A stretch of 9,599 nt of DNA from Candidatus Bathyarchaeota archaeon (GTDB lineage Archaea; Thermoproteota; Bathyarchaeia; Hecatellales; Hecatellaceae), in assembly GCA_030669485.1 (NCBI GenBank), contig DAOVDL010000011.1, forward strand, positions 1 through 9,599, written 5' to 3'. The notes beneath the pieces were generated by a model, which searched no databases, had not been told where the DNA came from, and saw only the letters and a list, made by a program, of their open reading frames with translations. Position 1 is the stretch's first letter, and each line of letters opens with the position of its first letter. Shown here piece by piece: positions 1,588 through 4,354 of the stretch. The position numbers and the translations under genes are program-made.

Positions 1588-1935
1588 TTACTCTTCCACC
1601 CTTCTAACCAGCAGAAAGGAAAACAAAACAACTACCACAACTATGATGGATAGTGCCGTTCCGACGGTGGCTCCTACGCCCAATGTAGGCGGATACGCCG
1701 GCACCTCGGTGCCTTCTGGCGAAGGTGCTGGCGCTGGCAGAGGAGCTGCATCAAAGTCCTCAACACCAACCCGTCCCCCTTTCTCTTCAAGGGTCACAAC
1801 TGGCCCAAGCTGCGACTGGTCAGTCATCTCCCATATCGACGGAGCAAGGAGTAGGCTGAGCACCAAGGCCACGACTATTCCCGATGAGGCCGCGTGGACG
1901 AGTTTGAGCTGCATCTTCCGCCCCCTACTACTCAT
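1588..1935 (-). CDS. Small secreted or membrane-anchored protein with Pro-rich linker (unknown function)
   Basis: Unrecognised protein of about 115 residues with a clear layout: a basic N-terminus, a hydrophobic signal/anchor segment (about 15-34), an extracytoplasmic stretch rich in Pro, Ala and acidic residues (about 45-85), then a strongly hydrophobic helix (about 86-110) ending in RRVEE. This double-anchor, linker-rich form resembles a reduced version of the divergent DUF4349 protein (helix, Thr/Pro linker, C-terminal helix, basic end). Three in-frame ATGs are possible, at 1941, 1935 and 1914. GGTGAG (1942-1947) touches the first and stands six bases before the second, so 1935 is favoured if the gene is read from the upstream regulator. 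If the TATA-like box at 1948-1953 is used, 1914 would fit better. An overlapping plus-strand frame is low in complexity and has no membrane logic. Confidence 0.62.
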   Translation of the reverse strand: MSSRGRKMQLKLVHAASSGIVVALVLSLLLAPSIWEMTDQSQLGPVVTLEEKGGRVGVEDFDAAPLPAPAPSPEGTEVPAYPPTLGVGATVGTALSIIVVVVVLFSFLLVRRVEE

Positions 1936-1947: not shown

Positions 1948-1953
1948 GATATA
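1948..1953 (-). promoter_or_regulatory. Putative internal TATA box next to the operator
   Basis: TATATC on the minus strand lies directly after the TAGAAC half of the upstream palindrome. A start site about 25 bases on (near 1925) would place transcription before the in-frame ATG at 1914. It would give the small membrane protein its own operator-controlled promoter. Confidence 0.3.
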
Positions 1954-1971
1954 GTTCTAGGGTTTAGAACA
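1953..1971. promoter_or_regulatory. Operator-like palindrome, copy 1 (GTTCTA-N5-TAGAAC)
   Basis: The core GTTCTA (1954-1959) and TAGAAC (1965-1970) are perfect complements around GGGTT. The 13-mer GGTTTAGAACACC (1961-1973) recurs exactly at 2548-2560. It lies in the 34-40 base gap between the winged-helix regulator and the small membrane protein, immediately upstream of a minus-strand TATA-like box, where bound protein would block TBP/TFB. Confidence 0.6.
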
Positions 1972-1975
1972 CCCC

Positions 1976-2419
1976 TCAAACCGGCTTCAGCCTCCACTGC
2001 CGAACAGCCTCATACGCTGTGATGATGGCGGCGCTGGCTCCGAACATCAGGGCGAAGATGCCTTGAAGCGTCAAAGGTTGGAGGTACCTCAACGTGAAGA
2101 CGGCTAAGAGTGTTAGAAAGAAGGCGGTGTAGAAGAGGTATCTGGGAACCATTAATCCGCTGACCTTCACAAATGACTTTAAGGCTCCTACACCAACAGT
2201 CTCCTTCACCTCATAATCCCCAGAAGCATTCTTCCGGACAATACCCATGTGGACTAGTTTGTCCAAGTGATATACCGCGACGCTGGGGCTTGATAGATGC
2301 AGCTTTCTCTGAAGACCCCTCGCACTTGTTACGCTACCTGCCTTCACCAAGTGCCAGTAGACACGAAGCGTCGTCCCCTTAAGCTTCGCCTCCAAATCTA
2401 AATCTGACAATAATACCAC
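1976..2419 (-). CDS. Winged-helix transcriptional regulator with two C-terminal membrane helices
   Basis: A 147-residue one-component regulator. The N-terminal ArsR/MarR-like winged helix covers about residues 10-75: the helix-turn-helix is about 32-58 (GLQRKLHLSSPSVAVYHLDKL, read as 35-55) and the wing about 60-72 (IVRKNASGDYEVKE). Two hydrophobic helices follow at about 90-110 and 116-137, with a short basic cytoplasmic end (RQWRLKPV). The DNA-binding part would stay at the inner face of the membrane. The start is GTG at 2419; a TATA box at 2441-2450 lies about 26 bases upstream, so the message is probably leaderless. It is divergent from the DUF4349 gene and followed on the same strand by the small membrane protein. 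Matching palindromes beside both of those genes make it the obvious candidate regulator of them. The signal it senses is unknown. Confidence 0.85.
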   Translation of the reverse strand: MVLLSDLDLEAKLKGTTLRVYWHLVKAGSVTSARGLQRKLHLSSPSVAVYHLDKLVHMGIVRKNASGDYEVKETVGVGALKSFVKVSGLMVPRYLFYTAFFLTLLAVFTLRYLQPLTLQGIFALMFGASAAIITAYEAVRQWRLKPV

Positions 2420-2440
2420 AACCGTTTATTGAAACACTGA

Positions 2441-2450
2441 TAAGTATAAG
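2441..2450 (-). promoter_or_regulatory. TATA box of the winged-helix regulator gene
   Basis: On the minus strand this is CTTATACTTA, centred about 26 bases before the GTG at 2419, giving a leaderless transcript. A degenerate half-site (TGGAACA on the plus strand, 2470-2476; one mismatch to TAGAACA) lies about 20 bases upstream and could allow weak autoregulation. Confidence 0.5.
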
Positions 2451-2539
2451 AATTGTTTGCCAAGTGAACTGGAACATACTATCCTGTAAACGGGATCGAG
2501 GCGGGAAGAAGCAATCATACCTCCCGACTGAGACAGGTC

Positions 2540-2567
2540 TGTTCTAAGGTTTAGAACACCTGTTCTA
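2540..2567. promoter_or_regulatory. Operator-like palindrome, copy 2, with a third half-site
   Basis: TGTTCTAA (2540-2547) and TTAGAACA (2551-2558) form a perfect 8-base inverted repeat around GGT. A further TGTTCTA (2561-2567) forms a second perfect palindrome with TAGAACA (2552-2558), so three half-sites alternate in orientation. The two TGTTCTA direct copies are 21 bases apart, two helical turns. The last half-site runs into the TATA box of the DUF4349 gene at 2567-2575, so a bound protein would exclude TBP/TFB. Confidence 0.7.
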
Positions 2568-2575
2568 AAATATAG
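2567..2575 (+). promoter_or_regulatory. TATA box of the DUF4349 gene
   Basis: AAAATATAG, followed by TTTAA. A start site near 2597-2600 would leave a leader of about 20 bases, long enough to carry the GGTGGA ribosome binding site at 2608-2613. Confidence 0.5.
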
Positions 2576-2607
2576 TTTAATTTGGGTAGAATGAGTATCA
2601 TAAAGTC

Positions 2608-2618: not shown

Positions 2619-3530
2619 TTGGAGAATACATGGAAAACCAAGCTGTTGAAGAGAAAACGGCTGGTAGCTGCTATAGCCCTTATAGTTGTGATTGCATCAT
2701 CAGGCTTTGTGGTTGGCTTAACACTCCAACCCGCCGGCAGACAAGGGATAGTCGATTATGACATTGGGAAGACTCTACCACCTGCTGATACACGTACACC
2801 AATGCCAACACCTACCTCTGCACCAACATACTATAAAGCAGGCGCAGAGGGCATCACCGCCTCACTGGAGACAGTGAGTCGGAAGATAATCTACAACGCT
2901 TGGCTCTCTCTTGAAGTTCAAGACGTAGATGTGACCGTCAGCCAGATACAGGCAGTAGCCGAGGAGCTCGGCGGATACATCTCTCAGCTATCCGTCTCCA
3001 AAGGGAAGGAGGTAAAGACTGGTTCAGTGACCCTTCGAGTACCACAGGCCGACTTCTACACAGCTATCAGCCGAGTTGAACAGCTGGGTGAGGTGAAGGA
3101 CAAGAACATCGGCAGCGAAGACGTAACTGAGCGGTACATTGACCTGAAGGCACGGCTGGAGAACGCCCAACGCCAAGAGCAACGCCTCCTCGAACTACTA
3201 GACAAAGCCTCCGATGTTGAGGATATGCTGAAGATCGAACGGGAGCTTGGAAGGATTCGGGAGCAGATAGAGGTCTACACCGGCCAGCTTACCTACCTTG
3301 AGCGCAGGGTTGAGTACGCAACCGCCACGATTGCTCTCTCCGAGCCAAGTCCCCCCGCTCCGCTCCCTGAGGTTGACTGGGATGCCACGGTCAAAACTGG
3401 GCTTTGGGGGTTGTTCGTCATTGTTCAGGGGTTGATAGTCCTTGCCTTCATCATAATCCCTCCAGTAGCTGTGGGAGTGCCAATCTACTACGTGTACAGG
3501 CGACGACATAGAAAGAAAGCAAGCGCTTAA
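2619..3530 (+). CDS. DUF4349 domain membrane-anchored coiled-coil protein
   Basis: A 303-residue envelope protein. A basic N-terminus leads into a signal/anchor helix (about 14-36), a Thr/Pro-rich linker (about 52-72), then the DUF4349 region from about 86 to 290. Family hallmarks visible are RKIIYNAWLSLEVQDV (88-103), the LGGYIS turn (117-122), VTLRVPQADF (137-146), the SEDVTERYIDLKARL block (166-180), a charged coiled coil (about 175-222, with IERELGRIREQIE at 206-218) and a C-terminal transmembrane helix (about 262-293) ending in RRRHRKK. In this family the central part is expected outside the membrane and the basic tail inside; no biochemical function is known to me. It is divergent from the winged-helix regulator, starts with TTG and has an operator-like palindrome against its TATA box. 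It is followed after 11 bases by a four-helix membrane protein. Confidence 0.88.
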   Translation: MENTWKTKLLKRKRLVAAIALIVVIASSGFVVGLTLQPAGRQGIVDYDIGKTLPPADTRTPMPTPTSAPTYYKAGAEGITASLETVSRKIIYNAWLSLEVQDVDVTVSQIQAVAEELGGYISQLSVSKGKEVKTGSVTLRVPQADFYTAISRVEQLGEVKDKNIGSEDVTERYIDLKARLENAQRQEQRLLELLDKASDVEDMLKIERELGRIREQIEVYTGQLTYLERRVEYATATIALSEPSPPAPLPEVDWDATVKTGLWGLFVIVQGLIVLAFIIIPPVAVGVPIYYVYRRRHRKKASA

Positions 3531-3541
3531 GATGTTGCGGT

Positions 3542-4003
3542 ATGGACAGACGCAAACTAGCCGTGTTTTCTCTGATAGGTTTGGGCTTATTCGTTATGCT
3601 GTACTGTGCGCTACTTCTAATCTCGACGAGAATGGCTCTGCCGCCTTGGTCCCTTCAAACTGAGGGGAAATATGTCGCATATGGCTTGAGCGTGTGGCTG
3701 TATGGATTATGGATGATTCCTATTGGAGCTATCATAACGCTTCTGGGGATATATCTCTACCCAACCTCTTCACTCAGTAGAAAGAGCTTCATCATTCCAG
3801 CGGTCTTAGGACTTGGGGCTTCAGCCGCCCTCCTCTACTATGGTTCAAGCATTATCAGCAACTTAATTACGTATCCCCAGCTTCCGACGCCTCTCCAAAT
3901 ATTCGGCGGCTTTGTAGGAATGTTCTTACCACTCACAATAGTGCTTCTTCTATCTATTTTTACCGCTCGCAAAATACTGAGAACCATGCACTCCCAGAAA
4001 TAG
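3542..4003 (+). CDS. Four-helix integral membrane protein (unknown function)
   Basis: A 153-residue protein with four predicted helices at about 7-28, 46-73, 82-108 and 118-142, a basic N-terminus (MDRRK) and a basic C-terminal tail (ARKILRTMHSQK), so both ends are probably cytoplasmic. The loop between helices 1 and 2 (about 29-45) is the longest extracytoplasmic part. I do not recognise a family or any catalytic motif. It lies 11 bases after the DUF4349 gene on the same strand with no visible promoter between them, which suggests co-transcription and a possible partnership in the membrane. The ATG at 3542 is the only reasonable start near the upstream stop; its ribosome binding site is weak. 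Confidence 0.7.
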   Translation: MDRRKLAVFSLIGLGLFVMLYCALLLISTRMALPPWSLQTEGKYVAYGLSVWLYGLWMIPIGAIITLLGIYLYPTSSLSRKSFIIPAVLGLGASAALLYYGSSIISNLITYPQLPTPLQIFGGFVGMFLPLTIVLLLSIFTARKILRTMHSQK

Positions 4004-4136: not shown

Positions 4137-4159
4137 GTAGATACAACTTGGTGTGGTCA

Positions 4160-4354
4160 ATGGGAAAACCATCTAAATTCCTGAAGGTCAGAGTTGTCAA
4201 AATGGGTGAGCATCTCCGAATGGCAATCCCTCCAGAAGTGGCTGAATCCTTGAACATAAGGGAAGGCGATGTTCTAGGTGTAACAACAACGAACCATGAA
4301 ATATTAGTTAAAAAGATGGGATATAGAGTGGTTGAAAAATCAAAAGAGAAATGA
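4160..4354 (+). CDS. AbrB/SpoVT (MazE-like) DNA-binding protein
   Basis: A 64-residue protein that is almost entirely one swapped-hairpin AbrB domain (about 8-52): VRVVKMGEHLRMAIPPEVAE (10-29), followed by SLNIREGDVLGV and a final strand ILVKK. Such proteins bind DNA as dimers and serve as antitoxins or global regulators. No toxin (PIN or MazF-type) gene adjoins it: purM lies convergent downstream and the DUF4349 pair lies upstream, so it looks like an orphan regulator. The ATG at 4160 has GGTG (4150-4153) six bases upstream; TTG 4148 or GTG 4151 would overlap that site. The tail (KSKEK) is basic and short. Confidence 0.85.
   Translation: MGKPSKFLKVRVVKMGEHLRMAIPPEVAESLNIREGDVLGVTTTNHEILVKKMGYRVVEKSKEK

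Follow-up and report, generated by a model that had tools for sequence, protein, structure and literature searches.

TATA-fused palindromes as candidate operators of a membrane-anchored winged-helix regulator family in Bathyarchaeia

Two near-identical palindromes with the core GTTCTA-N5-TAGAAC flank the gene of a small winged-helix protein on a contig of a Candidatus Bathyarchaeota archaeon (GCA_030669485.1, DAOVDL010000011.1). This arrangement raises the question of whether the intervening gene encodes a regulator that uses the palindromes as its operators, and which genes they might serve. Here, we address this question for the whole stretch of DNA analysed, a window of 9,599 nucleotides, and for related loci in other archaeal genomes. 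As judged from sequence comparisons, the palindromes probably serve this regulator family as operators, be it for activation or repression, and a membrane-anchored DNA-binding protein apparently controls cell-surface-protein genes in many uncultured archaea. We infer the binding of regulator to site from their co-occurrence, a well conserved recognition helix and the lack of the site in a group of nine loci where the neighbours are metabolic genes. Gene regulation in these archaea is little known, and a readable operator yields regulons that can be tested starting from sequence alone.

The locus, its palindromes and its regulator

The features of the locus, in window coordinates, are as follows.

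1588 to 1914, minus strand: gene of a small protein of 108 aa; hydropathy, the sole basis for its topology, shows two terminal hydrophobic segments joined by a loop; putative target of the regulator and perhaps also its partner
1948 to 1953, minus strand: TATA-like box TATATC, directly abutting the single operator
1954 to 1970, minus strand: candidate single operator GTTCTA-N5-TAGAAC, 6 nt past the stop codon of the regulator (also +6 in L001 to L006), facing the gene of the small two-TM protein
1976 to 2419, minus strand: gene of the regulator, 147 aa; winged helix at the N-terminus, two predicted membrane helices at the C-terminus, no separate sensor domain
1991 to 2191, minus strand: codons of the helical hairpin, residues 77 to 143, a predicted membrane anchor in the AlphaFold2 model
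2249 to 2287, minus strand: codons of the predicted recognition helix, residues 45 to 57, with 7 of 13 residues invariant among 30 aligned members
2541 to 2557, plus strand: candidate distal operator of the DUF4349 promoter, an exact core match (12/12)
2562 to 2578, plus strand: candidate proximal operator, degenerate, GTTCTAAAATATAGTTT (9/12), 21 bp downstream of the distal site
2575 to 2583, plus strand: TATA box that probably serves the DUF4349 gene; it is fused to the proximal operator and was placed from relatives
2619 to 3530, plus strand: gene of a DUF4349 membrane protein, 303 aa (PF14257, E 1.1e-57); putative target of the tandem operator

Both cores lie where the initial annotation had placed them and are the only exact copies in the window. 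They have the 13-mer GGTTTAGAACACC in common (1961-1973 and 2548-2560), and TATATC was likewise found at 1953-1948 on the minus strand. The statement that no other copy exists holds for exact cores, but it overlooked the degenerate third site 21 bp past copy 2. The TATA box that had been assigned to the DUF4349 gene at 2567-2575 falls within this third site, and related promoters place the box further downstream. The idea that both copies share one geometry had to be given up as well, with copy 1 being a single site abutting its TATA-like box and copy 2 the distal member of a pair.

Allowing up to three mismatches, the 19-mer around the core has three matches in the window against 0.06 expected, and none of 200 shuffles reached three. 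The third of these (4270-4288) looks like a chance match; it lies inside the reading frame at 4148-4354, which encodes a short MazE/AbrB-like protein (PF04014, E 3e-7). The 17-mer core alone is not unusual at this tolerance (eight matches against 4.05 expected, a number reached by seven shuffles).

The small-protein gene lies 3′ of the regulator gene on the same strand, and the DUF4349 gene is divergent from both. The DUF4349 protein is a clear family match (195.3 bits against a cut-off of 27.7). A database entry from the window's own contig (P0090) gives the small protein 108 aa; its translation probably starts at 1914, a position that suits a TATA box at 1948-1953. Downstream of the DUF4349 gene by 11 nt, and possibly on one transcript with it, lies the gene of a 153-aa hydrophobic protein (3542-4003) without a Pfam match. 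Beside the locus are encoded a corrinoid (B12-binding) protein (98-757) and a pyruvoyl-dependent arginine decarboxylase (973-1467).

The regulator resembles the ArsR-like Pfam family HTH_20 at E 0.00097 and 19.5 bits, below the curated cut-off of 27, and many of its homologues carry a precomputed match to PF12840. NCBIfam holds no family for the regulator or for the small protein. An AlphaFold2 model (mean pLDDT 80, pTM 0.56), built from the window sequence with 30 hand-chosen sequences out of 89 homologues, predicts a winged helix with helices at residues 6-12, 15-27, 33-40 and 45-57 and strands at 61-63 and 69-71. Five residues past the last wing strand it continues into a helical hairpin (77-112 and 118-143), which is also hydrophobic in the alignment and which we take as a predicted membrane anchor. 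Nine of the 22 invariant alignment columns fall within or just before the predicted recognition helix (S43 to L55). Foldseek neighbours of the model were winged-helix regulators, mostly generic, with none at E ≤ 0.001, and a sequence search of the PDB gave weak matches only.

The site in relatives and the genes it precedes

Homologues of the regulator are widespread. The search returned 89 at E ≤ 0.001; named records are mostly from Bathyarchaeota, with others from Methanomethylicota and further groups. At E ≤ 1e-20, at least one family member was found in 209 of 256 genomes of the class, and many genomes have two to six. Eighty genome loci were fetched by their regulator (41-61% identity, 774 kb in total). 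The exact palindrome occurs 13 times in these loci: ten loci have one copy each directly past the regulator stop, and three of them have a second, upstream copy. Like the window, L001 to L006 have a copy 6 nt past the stop, here with at most one mismatch; each has a second one that faces a divergent gene from 94-176 nt upstream of the regulator match. An unbiased scan for palindromes in the 120 nt around the stop recovered the same form, since arms of six with a gap of five turned up in 18 of 80 loci, where shuffles gave 1.3; a gap of three gave nine loci against 2.0, and the remaining gaps were near chance.

A site matching at least 9 of the 12 core positions is present between -8 and +30 of the regulator stop in 60 of 80 loci (window included; one of the 81 loci was too short and was dropped), as compared with 64 of 3,978 random windows and 15 of 584 ends of other long reading frames. 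Sites were also seen in records of Methanomethylicota, Baldrarchaeota, Culexarchaeota and Nitrososphaeria. Of the two halves, the left one (GTTCTAA) hardly varies, whereas the right one does (TAGAAC, TAGAAT, TGGGAT, TGGACA). The regulator stop codon is overlapped by 13 of the 60 sites, where conservation of the regulator C-terminus may add to the match. At six loci (L013, L019, L024, L031, L033 and L035, all at position -6) the left half overlaps the last codon and the stop, and the operator is there in part coding.

The position of copy 1, only 6 nt past the regulator's stop, would also suit a terminator or another RNA-level element following the regulator gene, or simply a chance repeat. We regard this as hardly credible: the site is conserved upstream of the regulator too and in trans before other genes, it is commonly followed directly by a TATA-like box, and its arms are AT-rich.

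The 20 loci without a site comprise nine beside sugar-metabolism-like genes (L008, L010, L012, L026, L036, L040, L058, L061 and L073, all with sites below 9/12), L007 and ten more that are non-metabolic. The neighbours in the metabolic group are mostly sugar-oxidoreductase-like or isomerase-like genes. This group was set apart by hand after sites and neighbours had been viewed, and without it the count becomes 60 of 71. In the regulator tree, from which two of the 81 loci were left out, the nine form one group (support 91/86, not starred) nested among site-bearing regulators. A 17-mer that recurs upstream of the metabolic group was set aside, as it is probably part of a tRNA-His gene; such a gene lies just upstream in L008, L010 and L058, and none was found in L012 or L040. 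The regulator of L007 is sister to the clade of the window's regulator and has no site beside it. A 9/12 site does, however, lie upstream of a DUF4349 gene in the same genome (G005, to which L124 also belongs).

To which genes do the sites belong? Neighbours were classed by fixed rules in 81 loci, and a gene of a small two-TM protein directly follows the regulator in 47 and a beta-propeller gene is adjacent in 31 (16 downstream, 15 divergent). Of the propeller proteins, the three examined for their family match PF09826 at E 5e-140 or better. The site is present in 45 of the 47 small two-TM loci and 30 of the 31 beta-propeller loci, which amounts to 58 of 60 loci with either gene; among those with neither it was found in 2 of 21. 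A tblastn search of the first 80 regulator loci detected no DUF4349 gene, and none was found in 14 of 15 genomes. The impression that the DUF4349 link is private to the window was nevertheless overturned by a class-wide family search, which matched 26 of 256 genomes (19 over the cut-off), and by the loci that resulted from it: in L126, L127, L132 and L133 the DUF4349 gene is divergently adjacent to the regulator, as in the window. The putative targets of the regulator look like membrane or secreted proteins, and DUF4349 and beta-propeller proteins of unknown role would be tied to one membrane-tethered control system.

Thirteen regulator-bearing genomes chosen from the loci contain 13 exact sites, against four for the reversed pattern. 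Eight lie at regulator genes, three in trans before genes of N-anchored proteins, and two (both in G002) at neither. In G007 (L091) a tandem pair 7 kb from the regulator precedes a gene whose product is homologous to the 140-aa divergent target of L001 (52% identity), and trans sites precede further homologues of this protein in G011 (L087; 43%) and G148 (L170; 54%). With one mismatch allowed, the motif exceeded its reversed control in only 3 of 12 genomes; most of these sites are background, and they were inspected singly.

A hand sum over all 256 genomes gives about 106 exact sites. The reversed pattern yields about 61, and a control of the same composition that keeps CTA/TAG yields 17. Since the reversed pattern is far from rare, chance may account for many of the isolated exact sites. 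The class-wide count alone was accordingly unconvincing as evidence, and signal was separated from chance by the TAG-keeping control and by site position. Among 28 class-wide motif loci (one from each genome in listing order, hence not a random sample, with near-copies retained), the start of a gene with an N-terminal TM segment is nearby in 14, a family regulator is in the locus in eight, and the site lies inside a reading frame in six. The corresponding numbers are 0, 0 and 28 for 30 loci of the reversed control, and 1, 0 and 8 for 15 loci of the TAG-keeping control. Fisher tests of motif against reversed control give 4e-6 for N-TM starts and 2e-8 for location inside reading frames; those against the TAG-keeping control are weaker (0.006 and 0.046). 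The junction between tandem sites, TAGAAC-N4/5-GTTCTA, was found in 76 of 256 genomes, with controls also common, and was not used as evidence. In sum, the proposal that the palindromes are operators for the regulator between them gained support from conservation at related loci and from gene preference, the latter seen above a background.

The sites might be bound by another factor, for instance a winged-helix paralogue whose gene lies elsewhere in the genome. Many genomes do have several family members, and paralogues carry near-identical sites (L001 and L063 in genome G001). Where a genome has several paralogues they share one motif, and any of them might bind a given site. We consider this reading unlikely, as 60 of 80 loci have the site beside a family member, an arrangement typical of a local regulator.

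Promoter architecture and the sense of control

An earlier test of the distance between site and TATA box favoured the earliest of equal scores and was redone with a strict box; near-copy loci were removed only for this test, for the A+T profile and for the set of 52 exact sites. In 59 distinct promoters, a strict TWWA lies at offset 0 of the nearest site in 28, compared with 0-5 at 44 other offsets, and WAWW lies there in 44. The first three positions after the proximal site are 97-100% A+T. The 52 distinct exact sites behave alike, with TWWA directly adjacent in 24 and 0-6 at other offsets. For 38 exact sites (10 hand-picked loci and 28 class-wide), a gene start was found within 123 nt in 26 cases, and all 26 sites lie 30-110 nt before it; as this set mixes two kinds of loci, the comparison of the 28 class-wide loci with their controls is the cleaner one. 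One site with a single mismatch, in L189, is only 1 nt before a reading frame.

A second feature is the pairing of sites. In the DUF4349 promoters of 17 loci (including near-copies, L129 with L131 and L135 with L137) and the window, the mean best pair score is 15.89 of 24 at a spacing of 21 bp, as against 13.1-14.2 at other spacings from 14 to 44 and 12.88 (sd 0.22) in shuffles. At 21 bp, 8 of the 18 promoters score at least 17, and the window scores highest (12 + 9). The search upstream of DUF4349 genes that the initial annotation had proposed gave a largely positive answer: the site is found in most of the 17 loci, but five lack a strong pair, with scores of at most 14 (L124, L128, L131, L136, for which only 83 nt were available, and L138). 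This pairing in relatives marks copy 2 as the distal site of the window's promoter. In 11 of the 17 relatives the proximal site runs straight into TTTA, which makes 2575-2583 the most likely approximate position of the window's DUF4349 TATA box.

Pairs are also seen outside DUF4349 promoters. They occur, spaced by 21 or 22 bp, in thirteen downstream promoters of regulator loci. The gene that follows encodes 599-696 aa in ten of these and is small in L027; the second member in L038 looks like chance. The divergent promoters of L001 to L003, L005 and L006 have an extra site about 20 bp further out. Of the 52 distinct exact sites, nine are partnered at 21 or 22 bp, and control spacings give 0-2. 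When offsets are ranked by mean match alone, 21 and 22 bp are unremarkable (z 1.3-1.6) and offset 13 comes first (z 4.7). In L172, tandem sites (1488-1525) lie between a more distant winged-helix/two-TM regulator of 142 aa and a 276-aa N-anchored protein.

The fusion to a TATA box at fixed spacing would also be expected if the motif were not this family's operator but belonged to the core promoters of these archaea in general. This is very unlikely, given that the 256 genomes hold only about 106 exact sites, that the motif tracks regulator loci and surface-protein genes and drops below 9/12 in the nine loci with metabolic neighbours, and that a palindrome and a 21-bp pairing are both foreign to core promoters.

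If the sites are operators, their geometry suggests how they may work. The regulator would be a small membrane-tethered one-component factor whose winged helices bind GTTCTA-N5-TRGAAY as dimers. One such site abuts the TATA-like box of the small two-TM gene, and two candidate sites 21 bp apart precede the DUF4349 gene, the nearer being fused to the likely TATA box. As 21 bp corresponds to two helical turns, both DUF4349 sites would lie on the same face of the helix, where two dimers could cooperate. With the box fixed directly after the site, the right half-site occupies the expected position of the BRE, and a bound dimer would therefore act on the loading of TFB and TBP. The signal would come from the membrane, probably reflecting membrane or envelope state and perhaps being read through the small two-TM protein.

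We give activation by recruitment of TFB/TBP a little better than an even chance, and favour it over repression. The alternative, a real possibility that we put somewhat below even, has the same regulator on the same operator as a repressor, with a dimer covering the edge of BRE and TATA and blocking TFB/TBP until a membrane signal releases it. It is in keeping with the right half-site covering the bases just before the TATA-like box, and TrmB is described as repressing from a site that overlaps BRE and TATA (PMC4706686). The rigid spacing of site to TATA box, the upstream position of the extra site in the pairs inspected, and the lack of any of the 26 exact sites within 30 nt of a start codon argue for activation instead, as repressor sites would be expected downstream of TATA too. 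There are precedents as well: ArnR and TFB-RF1 are reported to activate from upstream (PMC6396743, PMC5937170), and the requirement for the activator EarA is reported to be bypassed by a stronger BRE (PMC13286277). The locus would be a clean case of a membrane-held factor acting on an archaeal TBP/TFB promoter.

A wider proposal is that the family provides a code for the surface proteome. Short, tethered and sensorless winged-helix regulators of Bathyarchaeia, Methanomethylicota and neighbouring lineages would use one TATA-fused operator, as single sites before small two-TM proteins and often as 21/22-bp pairs before large surface proteins, and the small two-TM protein would be a dedicated extracytoplasmic sensor for its regulator. 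We offer this tentatively and hold it to be rather doubtful in its full extent.

Comparison with known systems

A literature search, in which few subscription journals were covered, found no account of this regulator family or operator in these archaea. Its wider class is that of the transmembrane transcription regulators (TTRs), since one chain combines a DNA-binding domain with at least one predicted TM region. This combination is described for TTRs of bacteria and archaea, including the ToxR- and TcpP-type pairs (PMC10269533). A membrane partner gene is reported to adjoin some bacterial members (PMC10269533), and the small two-TM protein might, as a guess, be such a partner. The window's regulator differs from the TTRs described there in having no extracytoplasmic sensor domain (PMC10269533).

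In logic, the regulator would be closest to ArnR and ArnR1, membrane-bound activators of archaellum and pili genes in Sulfolobus acidocaldarius (PMC6396743), with a different protein build and operator. ArnR and the window's regulator both have an N-terminal HTH and two C-terminal TM helices, predicted in the latter. The ArnR operator is likewise described as a pair of inverted repeats, spaced by 5 nt and lying upstream of BRE/TATA, that are jointly required for binding, and its targets are surface structures, as the putative targets here look like membrane or secreted proteins (PMC6396743). In contrast, ArnR is reported to have a HAMP-like and sensor region between HTH and TM helices, which is absent here, and its box is TCGAC-N5-GTCGA, as opposed to GTTCTA-N5-TAGAAC in two copies at the DUF4349 gene and one at the small gene (PMC6396743). 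The ArnR fragment with both boxes spans -43 to -84, whereas the nearer site here runs into the TATA box (PMC6396743). The putative targets also differ, being DUF4349, beta-propeller and small two-TM proteins. By the features compared, namely domain layout and operator, the regulator is outside the ArnR family. A possible wider link comes from a census of archaeal pili loci, which reports pfam12840 regulators near archaellum genes and one membrane-bound halobacterial regulator (PMC4858521).

Three further systems share single elements. TrmBL1 of Pyrococcus furiosus is soluble. It is described as using a palindrome with the same 5-nt spacer, TATCAC-N5-GTGATA, the effect of which is set by its position relative to BRE/TATA; it differs in its operator and in its regulon of sugar uptake and glycolysis (PMC4706686). 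SurR of the Thermococcales resembles the regulator in its ArsR-type winged helix and its GTT/AAC half-sites, three of which make up the long motif, but that motif, GTTn3AACn5GTT, is another operator, and the reported CxxC redox switch has no counterpart in the cysteine-free regulator of the window (PMC12162507). Finally, TFB-RF1 of P. furiosus is reported to have a palindrome, TCTGAANTTCAGA, which precedes a weak BRE and TATA box by a conserved distance and is retained at the protein's targets in relatives, much as the sites described here; operator sequence, membrane anchoring and targets set the two systems apart (PMC5937170).
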